Part shown: piece after piece, positions 34,456 through 42,881 of the stretch
How positions within the stretch are numbered: position 1 is the stretch's first letter
Layout of the letters: every line of letters begins with the position of its first letter
Assembly (NCBI RefSeq): GCF_000009625.1
Contig: NC_002682.1
Location: forward strand, 124,001-188,000
Origin: Mesorhizobium japonicum MAFF 303099
GTDB lineage: Bacteria > Pseudomonadota > Alphaproteobacteria > Rhizobiales > Rhizobiaceae
Direction: 5' to 3'
DNA: 64,000 nt
Made by a program: the position numbers and the translations under genes
Notes under the pieces: model-generated
What the model was told of the DNA's origin: nothing
Seen by the model: only the letters and a program-made list of their open reading frames with translations
The model's database searches: none

Positions 34456-35084
34456 TTGTCAGCCAGCCCCAGGCGCACCGAGCCGGAACTCCTGACCGTC
34501 TGAGCGCGTAATTTTCAGCCTCGAATGGGAATGTCAGCGTGTTGCCATCGGCCGTTACGCGGACGGTCGCCGTGTCGCTGTGTCTGAAACGGCCGGCGCT
34601 TATCCTCGGGGTCTGCCTGCGGCAAACGGCATAGGACGGCCAATTGGAACGAAGGCGGCCGGTGGCTTGTATGCGTCGTTGCGAATAATGAAGCGACCGG
34701 CAGCAGGCAAGCGAGGCAGCGACAAACTGACAGCAAGGTGGGGCGAGTTCAGTGTACGTTATGGGCTGACGGATCGTCACTACCGAGGCTAGGTCAAACC
34801 ACGATGCTTCTGAAGCGGCCTGGATGCCTTTCATGACGGCCTGGGTGCCGACATGCCACCTTCTTCGGAGATATTTTACAGGTGTAGCGACATCCGTTTT
34901 CGATCCGGCGCCCTTCGCCGGGGGCGGTCGGTCCCGCATCCCGCCTGGCGGCGGCGCTATGCTGATGCTCCTTCGGCCGCCCTGTTCAACCGGTCTCAGG
35001 GCCACGAACGTGCTCCAGCACCGAACTGACTTGGTCCCACTGACGGACATTTCGGTGCCTGCGCTTTGTACGTCCTTTTCATTT
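34456..35084. other. Intergenic stretch before the plasmid module, no gene recognised
   Basis: About 630 bp. A long minus-strand open frame (to 35209) has an unusual composition and no family; fragments such as TATVRVTADGNTLTFPFEAE look weakly coding near 34515-34600 and could be a relic. No promoter consensus stood out. It separates the stress region from the ArdC module. Confidence 0.35.
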
Positions 35085-35109
35085 GGTCGGGAGGATGGCT
35101 CTCCCGACC
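35085..35109. repeat. Upstream hairpin in the ArdC leader
   Basis: GGTCGGGAG (35085-35093) and CTCCCGACC (35101-35109), a perfect 9-bp stem with a 7-nt loop, 84 bp before the ArdC start. Confidence 0.6.
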
Positions 35110-35136
35110 GAGAGTTAGAGGATGGGGCAGGTTTTT

Positions 35137-35182
35137 CGCGACGGGTCGAAAGCGGAAGGAGAGGCCTTCGGCTCCCGTCGCG
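35137..35182 (+). promoter_or_regulatory. Structured 5' leader of the ArdC gene (hairpin abutting the RBS)
   Basis: CGCGACGGG (35137-35145) pairs perfectly with CCCGTCGCG (35174-35182) across a 28-nt loop. The 3' arm touches the GGAGAA ribosome binding site of the gene starting at 35193. A matching element precedes the parB-like gene (36243-36289). Confidence 0.65.
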
Positions 35183-35192
35183 GAGAATCGCG

Positions 35193-36155
35193 ATGTCTGT
35201 CCGGACCAATCGAACACATGACGCCGCCGACCGGTCGAACCTCTACGACGAGATCACCGGCAAGATAATTGCCGAGCTGGAAGCCGGTCGTTTTCCTTGG
35301 GTCCAGCCATGGGGGGCTTCCGCCGCAGACGCGTCGCTTTCCCTGCCTACGAATGCGAGCACCCATCGTGCGTATAGCGGGATCAATGTGCTCATCCTCT
35401 GGGATGCCGTCGTTGAATGCGGGTTCCCCACGCAGAATTGGATAACCTATCGACAGGCGTTCGCGCTCGGCGGGAACGTCCGCAGAGGCGAGCACGGGAC
35501 AACGGTCGTCTATGCCGATCGTTTTGTCCCGGATCACGAGAAGAAGCGCGCTCGCGATACGGGCGAGGATGCTCAAGCCATACCGTTCCTCAAGCGCTTC
35601 ACCGTTTTCAACATCGAGCAATGTGAAGGGCTCCCTGACGAAGTCGCAGCTTCGGCCCCGCTGTCAGTGGCAAGCCCGATCGAACCGCGTGTCGAGGCGC
35701 TGATCAATGCCACCGGTATCGACTTCCGGATTGGCGGCGACAGGGCGTTTTATGTGCCTGCCCACGATTATATCCAGGTGCCTCCGCCCCAAGCTTACTT
35801 CGAGCCGATCAATTGGCATCGGACAGCCTTGCATGAGCTCGGTCATGCCACCGGCCATGGTTCACGCCTGGATCGCAAATTATCCGGCTCTAGCGCCTCC
35901 AGGAAGTATGCGTTCGAGGAGCTCGTGGCAGAAATCAGCGCGGCTTTCTGCTGCGCGACCCTTGGCATCGTGCCCACGGTTCGGCATGCCGACTACATCG
36001 GCACATGGCTGGAGGTTTTGCGCGAGGACAACCGCGCCATCGTCCGCGCCGCCAGCCAGGCCAGCAAGGCGGCCGACTGGCTTCTTGGCCACCTGCCGGC
36101 GGAGGCCGAAGCATCCATCGGGCTGGGCGCAGGCAATGATAGATCGGCGGCATAA
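35193..36155 (+). CDS. ArdC-like antirestriction/ssDNA-binding protein
   Basis: 320 residues. The N-terminal ArdC ssDNA-binding domain starts at about 15 (LYDEITGKIIAELEAGRFPW, then VQPWG), with NVLILWDAVVECGF and QNWITYRQAFALGGNVRRGE. The C-terminal zincin-like peptidase domain has HELGHATGHGSRLDR (HExxH variant) and FEELVAEISAAFC. ArdC proteins protect incoming conjugative DNA from restriction. The ATG at 35193 fits GGAGAA at 7 nt; the open frame upstream is unsupported. First gene of the ArdC-ParB-helicase-Toprim module and preceded by a structured leader. Confidence 0.9.
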   Translation: MSVRTNRTHDAADRSNLYDEITGKIIAELEAGRFPWVQPWGASAADASLSLPTNASTHRAYSGINVLILWDAVVECGFPTQNWITYRQAFALGGNVRRGEHGTTVVYADRFVPDHEKKRARDTGEDAQAIPFLKRFTVFNIEQCEGLPDEVAASAPLSVASPIEPRVEALINATGIDFRIGGDRAFYVPAHDYIQVPPPQAYFEPINWHRTALHELGHATGHGSRLDRKLSGSSASRKYAFEELVAEISAAFCCATLGIVPTVRHADYIGTWLEVLREDNRAIVRAASQASKAADWLLGHLPAEAEASIGLGAGNDRSAA

Positions 36156-36242
36156 CCTTCGCCGACCGACGTGCGCGCTCGGCTGTCGACCAACGGTATG
36201 TCGGATTGTGCAGGCAGGAGAGGGAGAGGGTTGGAGGAGTCT

Positions 36243-36289
36243 TGTGACGGGTTCAAAGCCGAGAGAGAGGCTCGCGGCGGCCCGTCGCG
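36243..36289 (+). promoter_or_regulatory. Structured 5' leader of the ParB-family gene
   Basis: TGTGACGGG (36243-36251) pairs with CCCGTCGCG (36281-36289): the same 3' arm as in the ArdC leader, with two C-to-T changes in the 5' arm that keep pairing as G-U wobbles. Loops share an AAAGC-GA-GAGAGGC pattern. GGAGA follows the 3' arm directly. Confidence 0.65.
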
Positions 36290-36299
36290 GAGACCTTCA

Positions 36300-38414
36300 A
36301 TGACCACTGCCGTTCAAAAGATCACGCTGTCGTCCTCGCGCGACATCCCCTTCAGCAAGCTGGTCCTCGGCCAGTCCAATGTGCGTCGCATCAAGGCAGG
36401 CGTCTCGATCCAGGACCTGGCTGCTTCGATCGCTCGCCGCGGGTTGATCCAGAGCCTACACGTTCGACCTGTGGTTGATACCGATGGCCAGGAGATGGGG
36501 ATGTTCGAGGTACCAGCCGGCGGCCGCCGATATCGCGCCCTCGAGTTGCTTGTGAAGCAAAAGCAGCTTGCCAAAACAGCGCCGGTTCCCTGTGTCGTCG
36601 GCAGTTCTTCCAGCGCCATTCTGGCGAGGGAAGTCTCACTGGCAGAGAACGTCGAACGCGCGCCACTTCACCCGCTGGATCAATATCGGGCCTTCAAGGA
36701 TTTGCTCGACCAGGGTATGTCAGAAGAGGAGATTGCGGCTGCTTTCTTCATCTCGGTCAACGTCGTCAAGCAGCGGCTCAAGCTCACGACCGTTTCGCCC
36801 GCGCTTCTCGACGTCTATGCCGAGGACGGCATGACGATCGCCCAGCTTGAGGCATTTTCGGTCAGCAGGGATCATACAAGACAGGAGCAGGTCTGGGAGG
36901 CGATCAAGAACAACTGGTCGAAAGAGCCATACCAGATCCGCCGCATGCTCACCGAGAACACAGTGCGCGCCTCCGACAAGCGGGCCGTGTTTGTCGGCCT
37001 GGAGCGCTATGAGGCGGCGGGCGGCGAAGTGCTGCGCGATCTGTTCCAGTCGGATGATGGCGGCTGGCTGCAGGACGTTCCGCTGCTTGAACGGCTGGTG
37101 AAGGACAAGCTCCAGATGATGGCCGACGAAATAGCCAACGAAGGTTGGAAGTGGATCGAAGTCGCCGTGAGCTTCCCCTATGGCGCGGCCGACGGCCTGC
37201 GTGAGCTCGAGGGCGCACCGGTTGACCTCAGCAGCGAGGAGAAGGCAACGCTCCACGCGCTTCGCGACGAGCTCAGGAGTCTACAAGCGGAGTACGAGGA
37301 AGCTGATGAATTGCCCGATGAGGTCGACCAGCGCTTTGGCGAACTCGAATCCGCGATCAAGACGCTCGAGGCGCGCCCGGTCCGTTTCGATCTCGCCGAA
37401 ATTGCGCGTGCGGGTGTCTTCGTCAGCATCGACACGGACGGAGCAATTCTCATCGAGCGCGGCTATGTGAGGCCGCAGGATGAGGCGCCCGTGACACCCG
37501 AGGGCGACAACGATCCCGGCACCGACGGGTCCGACGTCGAAGCGACGGGTTTGGTTCAGCGGGCCGTCATCACCATCGGTGGCCCGCCGGCGGGCCCGGA
37601 GGAGGATGATGAGGATGGCATCAAGCCGTTGCCGGATCGCCTGATCACGGAACTGACCGCGGATCGCACCCTGGCTCTGCGCGACAAGCTCGCGAACGAT
37701 CCGGCAACCGCTTTTCTGGCCGTGCTTCACAAATTCGTCCGTGACGCTTTCTCTGGCTACAGCGCGCAAGGCGTGGCGATGGAAGTATTTGTCCGCGGCA
37801 CGGTCTTTCCGGTCCAGTCCGAAGGGCTTCGGGATACGAATTATGCGCGCTCGATCAAGAACCGCCACGAGGCCTGGGAAAAGCGTCTTCCAACGGACGT
37901 CGCCGACCTGTGGGACTCACTCTCTGCACTGACGGGTACCGAGCAAACTGAGCTGTTCGCGCATTGCGCATCCCTCGGCGTCAACGCCCTCTACGAAAGG
38001 GCCGATCGCTACGGTAACGGCGCCATCTCGACGCACGGTGTCCAACAGCGCCTTGCGGATGCCGATCACCTTGCTCGGGCAGTTGGGCTCGACATGATCG
38101 CCGCCGGATGGCGCCCCACTGTCGGCAACTATCTCGGCAGTGTCACCAAGGCGCGTATCCTCCAAGCCGTTCGCGAGGGTGCTGGGGAGCGCGCCTCCCA
38201 GCTCATCGATCACCTCAAGAAGGGCGACATGGCCAAGGAAGCCGAACGGCTGCTCGCCGATAGTGGCTGGCTGCCCGAGCCTCTGCGGCTTGCCGACGTT
38301 GATATCGAAGCAGTCGGCAGCAACGCTGGCGACGAGGATGAGACGCTGCCGGAATTCTTGGCAGGAGGCGACGCCGGCGATGAGGACGTAAAGCAGCTCG
38401 ACGCTGCCGAGTAG
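36300..38414 (+). CDS. Large ParB/Srx-family plasmid protein, 704 residues
   Basis: N-terminal ParB nuclease-like domain (about 10-120): FSKLVLGQSNVRRIKAGVSI, SLHVRPVVDTDGQEMGMFEV, PAGGRRYRALELL and LAENVERAPLHPLDQYRAF. A KorB-type helix-turn-helix follows at about 135-170 (EEEIAAAFFISVNVVKQRLK). The long C-terminal region (about 200-704), with an acidic linker, is not recognised. It is over twice the length of partition ParBs and is encoded far from repAB, so a role in plasmid establishment or DNA handling rather than segregation is more likely. An intrinsic terminator follows. Confidence 0.88.
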   Translation: MTTAVQKITLSSSRDIPFSKLVLGQSNVRRIKAGVSIQDLAASIARRGLIQSLHVRPVVDTDGQEMGMFEVPAGGRRYRALELLVKQKQLAKTAPVPCVVGSSSSAILAREVSLAENVERAPLHPLDQYRAFKDLLDQGMSEEEIAAAFFISVNVVKQRLKLTTVSPALLDVYAEDGMTIAQLEAFSVSRDHTRQEQVWEAIKNNWSKEPYQIRRMLTENTVRASDKRAVFVGLERYEAAGGEVLRDLFQSDDGGWLQDVPLLERLVKDKLQMMADEIANEGWKWIEVAVSFPYGAADGLRELEGAPVDLSSEEKATLHALRDELRSLQAEYEEADELPDEVDQRFGELESAIKTLEARPVRFDLAEIARAGVFVSIDTDGAILIERGYVRPQDEAPVTPEGDNDPGTDGSDVEATGLVQRAVITIGGPPAGPEEDDEDGIKPLPDRLITELTADRTLALRDKLANDPATAFLAVLHKFVRDAFSGYSAQGVAMEVFVRGTVFPVQSEGLRDTNYARSIKNRHEAWEKRLPTDVADLWDSLSALTGTEQTELFAHCASLGVNALYERADRYGNGAISTHGVQQRLADADHLARAVGLDMIAAGWRPTVGNYLGSVTKARILQAVREGAGERASQLIDHLKKGDMAKEAERLLADSGWLPEPLRLADVDIEAVGSNAGDEDETLPEFLAGGDAGDEDVKQLDAAE

Positions 38415-38472: not shown

Positions 38473-38526
38473 GTTCTGTCTGAGAGTGAGTGTCCGGTCG
38501 GGGCGGGTTGAGCCCGTGCGGTCAAA

Positions 38527-38560
38527 GAGAGCGCCGGGGGCTTTTCCCGGTCTCGCTCTC
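38527..38560 (+). promoter_or_regulatory. Structured 5' leader of the methylase-helicase gene
   Basis: GAGAGCG-CCGGG (38527-38538) pairs with CCCGG-tct-CGCTCTC (38546-38560), a 12-bp stem with a 3-nt bulge. It ends 2 bp before the AGAGGAT ribosome binding site. The 5' flank contains GGTCAAAG, recalling the AAAGC motif of the two leaders upstream. Confidence 0.55.
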
Positions 38561-38573
38561 CAGAGGATCTCCA

Positions 38574-41500
38574 ATGAATTTCTTGTCCCCGACAGCAACC
38601 GGCGATTCCGCCACGCCCGTCGATCCGGCCGCGGCAGTTTGTTCCGCAGCCCTGCGTCTGCTCCCCCACCTCGAATGTGGCCGGCGCGTCGATGCCGTTG
38701 TCCTGCGAAGCGCGATGGAAGCCTCATTCGGAGCCTCGGACACAAGCGGTGCCTGGAACTGGGCAATGGCGTATGACGCCTGCGAGGCCGCGACCGTCCT
38801 GTTCCTTCGCAAATACGGCAGGTTGCTTCTGCGCAAGGCCGGCTCCATGGCGTCCGCCCAACCGCTCTTTAGCCGGATAGCGGACCTTCTGCCCACGCAT
38901 ACCCGCCGCTCCGAGGAAAGCCAGGCGCTGCAGCAGTTCTCAACGCCTATCCCGCTGGGTCTCGCAGCCGTCTCGGCGGCGGCCATAACGGCATCCGACC
39001 GCGTGCTAGAGCCTTCCGCCGGTACTGGTCTGCTCGCTGTTCTCGCCGAGACGTCGGGCGGGTCGCTTGTCCTGAACGAGCTTGCGGAGGTTCGTGCGGG
39101 TCTTCTGTCTGTTCTCTTCCCGGGCCTTACCGTCACGCGGTTCGACGCGGCCCAGATCGATGATTATCTCGATCCCGCCAGCTTGCCCACCGTCGTGCTG
39201 ATGAATCCGCCGTTCTCGGTCCTCGCCAACGTACATGGTCGCGTCGCGGATGCGGCCTATCGCCATGTCGCCTCGGCACTCGCCCGGCTTGCCGCCGGGG
39301 GGCGGCTGGTCACCATCACCAATGCGAGTTTCGGCCCGGAGACCCCGGCCTGGCGTAACGCCTTCGGGCGCCTCCAGGAGCAGGGTCGTGTCGTTTTCAC
39401 GGCCACGATCAGCGGCGCCGTCTATGCCAAGCATGGCACGACGATCGACACCCGACTGACGGTCATCGACAAGACGCTGGCTGGCGATACGTCCTTCATT
39501 CCGGGCACGCCCGGCTTCGCGCCGGATGTCGCCACGTTGCTCAGCTGGATCGAGAAGCATGTCCCGGCACGTCCGCCGATCGCCGAAGCGGCGAAGGTCG
39601 TTCCCGCCATCACCGCGCCCCGGACGGTTCGCGGTTATCTCGCCCGCCCTGTCGCAGGCTCAGTTCACCGGCAGCTGTCCGAGCCTGTCGGCGTTGAACT
39701 GTCGTACGAGACGGTCGATTGGGCACCGGACGAGGGAGCGTGGCTGACCGACGCGATCTATGAAGACTATGGATTGCAGACGATCCGGATTCCCGGATCA
39801 CAGGCGCACCCGACCAGGCTGGTCCAGTCCGCGGCGATGGCGTCGGTCGCGCCGCCAAAGCCCACTTATCGGCCGACCCTGCCCAACCATATCTTGACCT
39901 CGCTCTCCGACGCGCAGCTCGAAACGGTGATCCTGGCCGGCGAGGCCCATTGCGGGTTTCTCACCGGATCGTGGTCAGTCGACCACACGCTCGATCTTGT
40001 CACCGCAGCACCCGAGGAGGCGCCAACAGCGGTGCGCTTCCGGCGTGGCTTCTTCATCGGCGACGGAACCGGCGTCGGCAAGGGCCGGCAGTCGGCGAGC
40101 ATTGTGCTCGACAACTGGCTGCAAGGCCGGCGCAAGGCCGTGTGGATTTCCAAATCAGACAAGCTGCTTGAGGACGCGCAGCGCGACTGGGCCGCGCTCG
40201 GCACGGAGCGTCTGCTGGTCACGCCGCTCTCACGCTTCCCGCAGGGACATCCCGTCACGCTTCCAGAAGGCATCCTGTTTACAACCTATGCCACGCTACG
40301 CTCCGACGACCGTGGCGAGAAGGTTTCGCGCGTCAGGCAGATCGTCGAATGGTTGGGCTCGGATTTCGACGGAGTGCTCATATTCGACGAGGCGCACGCC
40401 ATGCAGAATGCCGGCGGCGGCAAGGGAGAACGTGGCGACGTCGCGCCCTCACAGCAAGGTCGCGCCGGCTTGCGCCTGCAACATGCGTTGCCTGGCGCCC
40501 GTGTCGTCTATGTCTCCGCCACCGGCGCGACCACCGTCGCCAATCTGGCCTACGCCCAGAGGCTTGGCCTCTGGGGTAGCGAGGACTTCCCGTTCTCGAC
40601 CCGAGCGGAGTTCGTCGAGGCGATAGAGGCGGGTGGCGTGGCGGCAATGGAGGTGCTCGCCCGGGACCTTCGCGCGCTCGGCCTCTACACGGCACGCTCG
40701 CTCTCCTTCGACGGCGTCGAATATGAACTGGTTGAGCATGAACTGACGCTTGAGCAGCGGCGCATCTACGATGCCTACGCGGGCGCCTTCGCCGTCATTC
40801 ACAATCATCTCGACGCGGCCATGCGGGCCGCCAACATCACCGGCGACAGCGGCACGTTGAACCGCCAGGCCAAGTCCGCCGCGCGCTCGGCCTTCGAAAG
40901 CGCCAAGCAGCGCTTCTTCGGTCACCTGCTGACGTCGATGAAGACGCCGACGCTGATCCGCTCGATCGAGCAGGATCTCCAGTCCGGGCATTCGAGCGTT
41001 ATTCAGATCGTCTCCACCGGCGAGGCGCTGATGGAACGCCGGCTGGCGGAGGTGCCGACGCAGGAATGGAACGATGTCCGCGTCGACATCACGCCGCGCG
41101 AATATGTGCTCGATTACCTCGAGCATTCCTTTCCAGTTCAACTCTACGAGCCCTTTACGGATTCGGAAGGGAACCTGTCGTCGAGGCCGGTGTTTCGCGA
41201 CGGCCAGCCCGTTGAAAGCCGCGAGGCGCTCGCGCGCCGCACGGCGCTGATTGAGAAGCTGGCGAGCTTGCCACCGGTTCCTGGGGCGCTCGACCAGATC
41301 GTCCAGCTCTTCGGCACCGACATGGTCGCGGAGGTGACGGGTCGGTCGCGACGCATCGTCAGGAAGGGCGAACGCCTGATGGTCGAGGGCCGCGCAGCCT
41401 CGGCCAATCTCGCCGAGACGCAGGCCTTCATGGATGACGTCAAGCGCATCCTGGTGTTCAGCGAGGCCGGCGGGACCGGCCGAAGCTACCATGCGGAGCT

Positions 41501-42881
41501 TTCGGCACGGAACACACGTCTGCGCGTCCACTATCTTCTTGAGCCTGGCTGGAAGGCCGATACCGCCATCCAGGGGCTTGGCCGCACGCATCGGACCAAC
41601 CAGGCGCAGCCGCCGCTGTTCCGGCCGATCGCCACCAATGTGAAAGCCGAGAAACGCTTCCTCTCCACGATTGCCCGGCGTCTCGATACGCTGGGCGCGA
41701 TCACGCGAGGCCAGCGCCAGACCGGCGGGCAGGGCCTGTTCCGGCCGGAGGACAATCTGGAATCGCATTATGCGCGCGATGCGCTGCGCCAGCTTTATCT
41801 GCTGATCGTCCGCGGCAAGGTGGAGGGCTGCTCACTCAAGCTGTTCGAGCAGACCACAGGGCTGACGCTGACGGACGAGAACGGCATCAAGGACGAGTTG
41901 CCGCCGGTCACCACTTTCCTCAATCGCCTGCTGGCGCTTACCATCGAACTGCAGGACATCCTGTTCGCGGCTTTCGACCAGTTGCTCACAGCCAGGGTGC
42001 AAGGCGCCATCGCGGCTGGGGTTTATGATGTTGGGCTCGAAACGCTGCGAGCGGAGAGCTTTGTCGTCACCGATCGGCGGGCGATCTACACCCATCCGGG
42101 CACGGGCGCCGAAACGCAGCTCCTCACCATCGATCAGCGCCAGAGCAACCGACCCGTGCCTGTCGAGGAAGCTGTCGCCCAGCTCGACGACCAGCGCGCC
42201 ATCCTGCTGGTCAACGAACGCTCAGGGCGTGCTGCCCTGCAGGTCCCCGCGCCGTCGTTCATGCTCGATGATGGCGAAATCGAACGGCGGGTCAGGTTGA
42301 TCCGGCCGATGGAGCAACACCATGCCTCCCTGCGTATGATGGGGGACAGTCATTGGCAGCAGGCTGATCGGGAGACTTTCGCCGCCGCCTGGAGTGCGGA
42401 GGTCGCGGGCGTCCCGGCATTCTCGGACTCGACCATCCACATCGTCGCGGGGCTGCTGTTGCCGATCTGGAAGCGACTACCAAACGAATCGAGCCGGGTC
42501 TATCGGCTCCAGACCGACGAGGGGGAGCGCATCATCGGACGCAGGGTTTCGGCCGCATGGGCCGCCGGCGCGCTCGCAACCGGCGTCAGCACCCTTACGG
42601 CACGAGATGCCTTCAACGCCCTTGCGGACGGACGAACGATGCTCGACCTCGCCGAGGGACTTCATCTGCGCCGCGTTCGTGTCATGGGCGCCAATCGCAT
42701 CGAGCTGTCGGGCTTCACCGATAGCATGCGCGAGCGGCTGACGGCCTACGGGCTTTTCCACGAGATCATCTCCTGGAAGCTGCGGATGTTCGTGCCTGCG
42801 GACGCGAGTGGACCTGCGGTGCTCGCCAAGGTCATCGAGCGGTATCCCATACACCGCATCAGCGAGAAGGAGGCCACCTGA
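38574..42881 (+). CDS. Adenine-methylase/strawberry-notch helicase fusion (DarB-like)
   Basis: 1,435 residues. The N-terminal methyltransferase-like domain has the SAM motif VLEPSAGTGLLAVL (about 144-157) and catalytic NPPFS (211-215). A superfamily-2 helicase core follows, with a P-loop GDGTGVGKGRQ (about 496-506), FDEAHAM (about 603-609) and the late motif GLGRTHRTNQAQPP (about 1000-1013) typical of strawberry-notch helicases. The arrangement resembles the DarB antirestriction protein of phage P1. Predicted to act on incoming plasmid DNA, perhaps methylating or remodelling it. ATG 38574 follows AGAGGAT. Confidence 0.9.
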   Translation: MNFLSPTATGDSATPVDPAAAVCSAALRLLPHLECGRRVDAVVLRSAMEASFGASDTSGAWNWAMAYDACEAATVLFLRKYGRLLLRKAGSMASAQPLFSRIADLLPTHTRRSEESQALQQFSTPIPLGLAAVSAAAITASDRVLEPSAGTGLLAVLAETSGGSLVLNELAEVRAGLLSVLFPGLTVTRFDAAQIDDYLDPASLPTVVLMNPPFSVLANVHGRVADAAYRHVASALARLAAGGRLVTITNASFGPETPAWRNAFGRLQEQGRVVFTATISGAVYAKHGTTIDTRLTVIDKTLAGDTSFIPGTPGFAPDVATLLSWIEKHVPARPPIAEAAKVVPAITAPRTVRGYLARPVAGSVHRQLSEPVGVELSYETVDWAPDEGAWLTDAIYEDYGLQTIRIPGSQAHPTRLVQSAAMASVAPPKPTYRPTLPNHILTSLSDAQLETVILAGEAHCGFLTGSWSVDHTLDLVTAAPEEAPTAVRFRRGFFIGDGTGVGKGRQSASIVLDNWLQGRRKAVWISKSDKLLEDAQRDWAALGTERLLVTPLSRFPQGHPVTLPEGILFTTYATLRSDDRGEKVSRVRQIVEWLGSDFDGVLIFDEAHAMQNAGGGKGERGDVAPSQQGRAGLRLQHALPGARVVYVSATGATTVANLAYAQRLGLWGSEDFPFSTRAEFVEAIEAGGVAAMEVLARDLRALGLYTARSLSFDGVEYELVEHELTLEQRRIYDAYAGAFAVIHNHLDAAMRAANITGDSGTLNRQAKSAARSAFESAKQRFFGHLLTSMKTPTLIRSIEQDLQSGHSSVIQIVSTGEALMERRLAEVPTQEWNDVRVDITPREYVLDYLEHSFPVQLYEPFTDSEGNLSSRPVFRDGQPVESREALARRTALIEKLASLPPVPGALDQIVQLFGTDMVAEVTGRSRRIVRKGERLMVEGRAASANLAETQAFMDDVKRILVFSEAGGTGRSYHAELSARNTRLRVHYLLEPGWKADTAIQGLGRTHRTNQAQPPLFRPIATNVKAEKRFLSTIARRLDTLGAITRGQRQTGGQGLFRPEDNLESHYARDALRQLYLLIVRGKVEGCSLKLFEQTTGLTLTDENGIKDELPPVTTFLNRLLALTIELQDILFAAFDQLLTARVQGAIAAGVYDVGLETLRAESFVVTDRRAIYTHPGTGAETQLLTIDQRQSNRPVPVEEAVAQLDDQRAILLVNERSGRAALQVPAPSFMLDDGEIERRVRLIRPMEQHHASLRMMGDSHWQQADRETFAAAWSAEVAGVPAFSDSTIHIVAGLLLPIWKRLPNESSRVYRLQTDEGERIIGRRVSAAWAAGALATGVSTLTARDAFNALADGRTMLDLAEGLHLRRVRVMGANRIELSGFTDSMRERLTAYGLFHEIISWKLRMFVPADASGPAVLAKVIERYPIHRISEKEAT

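Follow-up and report, generated by a model that had tools for sequence, protein, structure and literature searches.

Why should neighboring genes with unrelated products begin with the same leader, and does that leader work as DNA or as RNA? The question arises in a 64,000-nucleotide stretch of Mesorhizobium japonicum MAFF 303099 (hereafter the window), in which ardC is followed by a ParB-family gene and then by a strawberry-notch-like helicase gene, a Toprim gene, and a YAcAr gene (Pfam). The window is part of a 208 kb contig in a genome of 7.6 Mb. Because VirB4-family and relaxase matches both occur on that contig (33.4 bits against a cut-off of 21, and 25.1 bits, barely above the cut-off of 24.6, respectively), it is likely, to judge from sequence, to be a conjugative-type plasmid.

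To our knowledge, the timing of the proteins that protect or establish incoming DNA in non-enterobacterial conjugative elements is largely open. A common leader signal names a gene set, unknown proteins included, and can also be used as a probe to search sequences for more members of that program. With it, translational control can be tested directly in ordinary soil bacteria.

Two Neighboring Genes Share a Structured Leader

The original prediction was that ardC and the ParB-family gene each have a stem with an identical 3' arm and a changed, but still pairing, 5' arm. Both stems are present in the sequence (Table 1), with the same 3' arm in each and 5' arms that differ as claimed; since both altered bases are U facing G, pairing survives the change. 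The 3' arm had also been described as abutting the ribosome binding site. It does lie at that site, but it overlaps the Shine-Dalgarno (SD) sequence rather than adjoining it, because each 3' arm ends on the G that opens GGAG. When the two leaders are folded alone, the stem runs on through the SD in both. Compared with dinucleotide shuffles, the ArdC leader has a z score of -4.38 (1 of 200 shuffles equally good), and the ParB-family leader scores -3.17 over 94 nt (1 of 200) and -3.41 over 69 nt (0 of 200). We refer to this form as type 1.

Table 1. Positions of genes and leader elements in the window
Feature	Position	Strand	Basis
Type 1 leader of ardC, whole	35102..35198	+	model R1, 82.6 bits (itself a row of R1)
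AGAG box AGAGTTAGAG, ArdC leader	35111..35120	+	sequence; columns conserved in relatives
Core stem 5' arm CGCGACGGG, ArdC leader	35137..35145	+	sequence, folding
Apical hairpin, ArdC leader folded alone; loop AGAGG 35160-35164	35151..35173	+	folding
Core stem 3' arm CCCGTCGCG, ArdC leader; last base is first G of SD	35174..35182	+	sequence
SD GGAG of ardC, within predicted extended stem	35182..35185	+	folding; P(unpaired) 0.0017 at 37 C
ardC (start codon at 35193)	35193..36155	+	ArdcN and MPTase-PolyVal metallopeptidase domains (Pfam)
Type 1 leader of ParB-family gene, whole	36210..36305	+	model R1, 75.6 bits (itself a row of R1)
AGAG box AGAGGGAGAG, ParB-family leader	36219..36228	+	sequence; columns conserved in relatives
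Core stem 5' arm TGTGACGGG, ParB-family leader	36243..36251	+	sequence
Core stem 3' arm CCCGTCGCG, ParB-family leader	36281..36289	+	sequence
SD GGAG of ParB-family gene, partly sequestered in model	36289..36292	+	P(unpaired) 0.26
ParB-family gene, 704 aa (start codon at 36300)	36300..38414	+	ParB_N (Pfam)
Type 2 leader, through helicase start codon; AGAG box variant 38483-38492	38478..38576	+	pattern; RNAalifold of relatives
Strawberry-notch-like helicase gene	38574..42881	+	AAA_34 and Helicase_C_4 (Pfam)

Pairing Is Conserved by Compensatory Change

Chance is excluded as the source of the resemblance because relatives show the same leader and the same pairing. The loci that we compared comprised 80 recruited by the ParB-family protein alone and 30 from whole genomes of the family. 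From 43 non-redundant leaders, picked by the two-arm pattern and aligned without structure, we built a covariance model, R1; both window leaders are among these rows, and their own scores are to be read with this in mind. Other R1 matches in the window (E <=10) number only two, of 7-8 bits, on the reverse strand of the same two places, and the genome holds no third match at E <=1. The 13-mer CCCGTCGCGGAGA occurs in two exact copies in the window and three in the genome, the third copy being no R1 match.

Selecting rows with a pattern or model of the element biases both of our alignments toward paired arms. In the 43-row alignment, 96.7% of pair cells are standard, seven of 18 pairs show double changes, and the covariation score was reached by 0 of 500 shuffles, which ignore relatedness. 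When the partner is slid by 1-3 columns, pairing falls to 40-46%. A second alignment, also structure-free, holds 90 of the 92 representatives supplied, drawn from ParB-family, ArdC, DUF932-like, and 182-aa genes and one 323-aa gene (no Pfam match; we take it to be PAPS-reductase-like). Here 93.2% of pair cells are standard and slid partners pair in 39-48%; double compensatory changes occur in 13 of 20 pairs, with 104 cells compensated. For instance, A-U is replaced by G-C in the core stem, and exchanges are numerous in the apical stem. Destroyed pairing was sought among the homologs, and only one of these 90 model-picked rows is less than 80% paired (75%). Within the SD, the A (columns 36/92) is unpaired in 31 of 90 rows, 24 of them G-A, and the last G (columns 35/93) in 15. 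The loop pattern proposed for the two leaders holds generally, with G57, A58, G59, and G61 of the loop region at least 90% conserved across the 43 leaders.

These data bear on the idea that the leader is the end of a recombination cassette, kept similar by gene exchange through it. Upstream of parB, the leader does occur on ardC in some loci and on a DUF932-like gene in others. Exchange would keep sequence, however, not pairing, and here the arms differ with pairing kept; type 1 leaders also differ strongly from the type 2 leaders described below. We consider a cassette end very improbable.

A Sense-Strand Fold That Encloses the Shine-Dalgarno Sequence

A G-U pair on one strand is an A-C mismatch on the other, and the excess of G-U therefore identifies the sense strand as the one that folds. 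On the mRNA strand, paired columns hold 149 G-U against 11 A-C in a first count and 343 against 37 in the 90 rows; type 2 leaders give 74 against 10. This bias points to an element that acts as RNA. A double-stranded operator, an inverted repeat bound by a dimeric repressor, would likewise place inverted repeats before neighboring genes, but it fits poorly with the strand asymmetry of the wobbles, the compensatory changes in the apical stem, and the placement fixed to the SD. We give it scarcely any weight.

The same strand asymmetry bears on an Frpo/ssi-type promoter, which would act on the strand that enters during conjugation. Such stem-loop promoters work from single-stranded DNA and drive early genes of the leading region of conjugative plasmids (PMC9849209, PMC11541004), and the leaders resemble them in being stem-loops before antirestriction genes of conjugative elements. 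The difference lies in the strand. In the F plasmid, the transferred strand, which is the one that folds, serves as template for the leading genes tested, ygfA excepted (PMC9849209); here it is the sense strand that folds and carries the G-U wobbles, a contrast that presupposes the same direction of transfer in this plasmid, and the SD is enclosed. The stem is also locked to the SD and start codon, and no sigma-70-type -35/-10 pair was found in 34900-36320 (sigma-70 consensus only; 0.4 expected by chance). We hold a single-stranded DNA promoter to be highly unlikely.

The placement is indeed tight: among 132 regex matches, 125 have the end of GGAG 7-9 nt upstream of the start codon. For a sample of 60 leaders, out of 132 usable among 152, the mean P(unpaired) of the SD was 0.105 for native sequences, and shuffling the 20 bases that lie 5' of the core stem raised it to 0.449. 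Because the SD opens when these bases are shuffled, the bases opposite it are kept for pairing, the unpaired A in 31 of 90 rows notwithstanding. An SD-sequestering cis-regulatory leader is marked by a conserved structure that takes in the SD immediately ahead of a start codon, and this is what we find; from the modeled sequestration we infer that the leader would act on translation. An RNA thermometer was rejected in silico, since the SD barely opens between 20 and 50 C (median P(unpaired) over the 90 rows 0.048 and 0.112, respectively, in the model).

A Box and a Loop Are Shared by Unrelated Genes

Outside the stem, a box of the form AGAGNRAGAG lies 5' of it, at a distance of 16 nt for ArdC, 14 nt for the ParB-family gene, and mostly 15-19 nt in relatives (regex). 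The box columns are at least 90% conserved in the 90 leaders, across several gene classes, and a GAGAG apical loop occurs in the main gene classes. Because the proteins encoded downstream are unrelated, this signature suggests that the RNAs have a reader in common. We found no candidate trans-acting factor for the leaders.

Other readings of the box were considered and set aside. In local folds, 45-68% of its positions are unpaired, depending on gene class. At the 160 of 225 sites that have a regex box and sufficient upstream DNA, we compared the frequency of a box-enclosing hairpin (at least five enclosing pairs) with that after shuffling the upstream sequence. The values were 0.84 versus 0.63 for the ParB class (45 tested of 104; mean z -1.41), 0.58 versus 0.78 for ArdC (24), 0.53 versus 0.67 for DUF932-like (15), 1.00 versus 0.87 for helicase (6), and 0.78 versus 0.56 for other genes (9). 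Given these mixed figures, inconsistent across gene classes, we rejected such a hairpin as a common part of type 1. A leader peptide was rejected as not conserved: a start codon stands 3-14 nt behind the box in 28 of the 90 rows and is missing from 48, the remaining 14 having no regex box. CsrA-type recognition of GGA was dropped on the look of the alignments, GGA being absent from many boxes and loops.

Directly before the ardC box, at window positions 35085-35109, there is an extra inverted repeat, GGTCGGGAG ... CTCCCGACC; several relatives have other hairpins at roughly that place.

The Leader Precedes Many Mobile-Element Genes

Which genes carry the leader? Starting from the proteins in the ParB-recruited loci, R1 matched 108 of 109 start sites of the ParB family, 46 of 48 of ArdC, and 29 of 29 of DUF932-like genes, counting sites with at least 100 nt upstream (1, 9, and 1 further sites, respectively, lay too near an edge) and with some contigs counted twice because the loci were not deduplicated (L014 and L090, for example, are one contig). 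The label DUF932 rests on the plasmid annotation and a sub-threshold Pfam match. The starts without a match are a ParB-family gene with different upstream DNA (L077), an ardC 119 nt from a contig end (L072), and a distant ArdC paralog with 44% identity over 109 residues (L016:9798).

Starting from the element instead, 310 of 316 distinct R1 sites lead an open reading frame (ORF) that is 40 aa or longer or extends past the locus edge, a figure biased toward start sites because R1 includes the start codon; the protein-first tally is free of this bias. The six other sites lie at a locus end (two) or before short or broken frames (four). By blastp, the 310 ORFs form 16 clusters, ten of them singletons: 144 are of the ParB family, 82 ArdC, 49 DUF932-like, nine helicases, nine of a 182-aa family, seven of a 120-139-aa family, and ten singletons. 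The rarer followers have low-scoring leaders, several of 23-37 bits and some without the GAGAG loop, and some of the short singletons may be spurious. Among them are a RadC gene (NCBIfam; leader of 35 bits without a GAGAG loop) and an antirestriction gene of Pfam family PF03230 (26 bits, type 2-like leader), so that the antirestriction followers come from two families, ArdC and PF03230.

The claim that unrelated genes carry an RNA element whose pairing is conserved is therefore well supported, by the compensatory changes, the G-U bias of the sense strand, the fixed placement at the SD, and the many gene families that carry it.

Some individual loci deserve mention. Loci such as L024, L036, L041, L044, and L073 have, where other loci carry ardC, a DUF932-like gene that bears this leader and starts about 1.37 kb upstream of parB. 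In L219, L222, L236, and L237, three to four R1 matches follow one another within about 7.5-11 kb before different genes, and some of these copies keep the stem and have lost the GAGAG loop. At four sites (L139:1501, L192:1501, L213:1501, and L223:775), leaders stand before short or broken frames that start like the usual genes, as if the leader outlived its gene.

A Related Leader Precedes the Helicase Gene

Weak R1 matches of 19-24 bits upstream of the helicase were the lead to a second form, type 2. It comprises an AGAG box, GGGACGGG together with CCCGTCCC, a loop reading GAGAGAGAGCG, and, immediately upstream of a GAGG SD, CGCTCTCC. A permissive pattern for this layout, composed after the sequences had been seen, is present at 73 of 81 distinct helicase starts, compared with 18 of 3000 pieces drawn at random from these loci. 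RNAalifold of 29 type 2 sequences gives 19 pairs, five with double changes, in a fold in which part of the AGAG box pairs with CUCU beside the SD. Type 2 is related to type 1 yet differently folded. The copy in the window, folded alone, is not significant (z -1.37). A type 2-like form, identified by sequence resemblance only, stands before an apparent antirestriction gene at L056:7621.

A New Family within a Known Kind

No family among the 4227 of Rfam matches the window at the gathering cut-off. In a relaxed search (E 10) of 35000-36400, one chance-level match lay over the ParB-family leader, to sno_ZL8 on the reverse strand at 16.9 bits (cut-off 52); similar searches of six loci at E 5 and seven at E 2 gave no match over any leader.

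Known RNAs with related surroundings were compared in turn. The radC RNA precedes radC, antirestriction, and other DNA-related genes. Like the leader, it is a conserved RNA structure of Proteobacteria, and it is classed as probable cis-regulatory (PMC2864571). Unlike the leader, it spans 149 positions with several hairpins, and its consensus structure shares no sequence or fold that we could see with that of the leader. We rejected it (RF01754): in 13 genomes with R1 sites, none of the matches listed for its model, above or below its 40-bit cut-off, falls on an R1 site, and it is absent among matches up to E 10 in 35000-36400. Above the cut-off, these 13 genomes hold only four sites, all in one genome and on a contig without R1 sites (G410:C4). 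The STAXI motif is described (PMC2864571) as lying near antirestriction, single-stranded DNA-binding, and integrase genes and as made of tandem pseudoknots, often with UUCG tetraloops. The leader is likewise near antirestriction genes, but tandem pseudoknots are a feature of STAXI, and STAXI is absent from the Rfam scans of the window and loci.

More broadly, leaders that sequester the SD include translational riboswitches, ribosomal-protein leaders, and thermometers. As in these, a conserved stem holds the SD directly before the start codon; unlike them, one leader serves many unrelated mobile-element genes, has no known ligand or protein, and melts little with temperature in silico. Because no Rfam family matches at its cut-off, the radC RNA is distinct, and no earlier description was found in the literature searched (titles and abstract starts, with most subscription papers and all preprints outside), the leader is best called a new family within a known kind, the structured cis-regulatory leaders on mobile-element genes.

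The four radC RNA copies in G410:C4 lie at 37277-77169, within 40 kb, and score 86-143 bits; L149 holds the first of them, and the two R1 sites of that genome are elsewhere.

A Proposed Model for Joint Translation

The element, its fold, its compensatory conservation, its strand, its position over the SD, its gene set, and its host class were all computed here. On balance, we think it probable that this is a new SD-sequestering hairpin leader on mobile-element genes that is opened or stabilized by a common trans-acting factor for joint translation. Each leader would be the 5' untranslated region of its mRNA and would fold into a long hairpin; since the lower stem takes in the SD, the default state would presumably be poor translation. 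Two shared signals, the AGAGNRAGAG box some 14-19 nt upstream of the stem and the apical GAGAG loop, would mark the mRNAs for one factor, a putative protein or small RNA that would open or stabilize the hairpin. Antirestriction, ParB-family, DUF932, helicase, and related mobile-element genes might then be translated together. Unrelated conjugative-plasmid genes with the same leader are thus probably controlled together at the level of translation. In the folding model, the SD of the window's ParB-family leader is only partly closed (0.26), which counts against the mechanism.

The hairpin might instead be a fixed brake without a switch, which only lowers translation and keeps costly DNA-binding proteins scarce, with the AGAG box as a ribosome standby site. 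The SD is closed and hardly sensitive to temperature in the model, and the box is purine-rich, as the SD is, and largely or partly unpaired, all of which would suit a brake. A brake needs no conserved loop or box, yet both are kept across unrelated genes while the stems vary, and we consider this explanation unlikely.

Returning to a trans-acting factor, the gene set fits a possible coordination after plasmid entry. A bolder proposal, which we advance only tentatively, is a post-transcriptional regulon, in which one factor made by the element or by the host reads box and loop and jointly opens leaders of both types, on arrival or before moving. Antirestriction, ParB-family, DUF932, and helicase proteins would then appear at once, and an element-wide RNA code would extend across Alphaproteobacteria.

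The Leader Is Found in Alphaproteobacteria

At E <=0.01, R1 matches 52 of 151 genomes of the family and 20 of 289 of the class. It also matches 34 of 398 genomes of a phylum sample whose listing does not give the share from outside the class; all 34 belong to the same class (Alphaproteobacteria) or closer. Phage records gave no match to one ardC leader in a blastn search, a weak test with a single query, and viral contigs gave none to one strict exact pattern, again a weak test. Among plasmids, one leader matches 159 of 72,556 records (blastn, E 1e-3).
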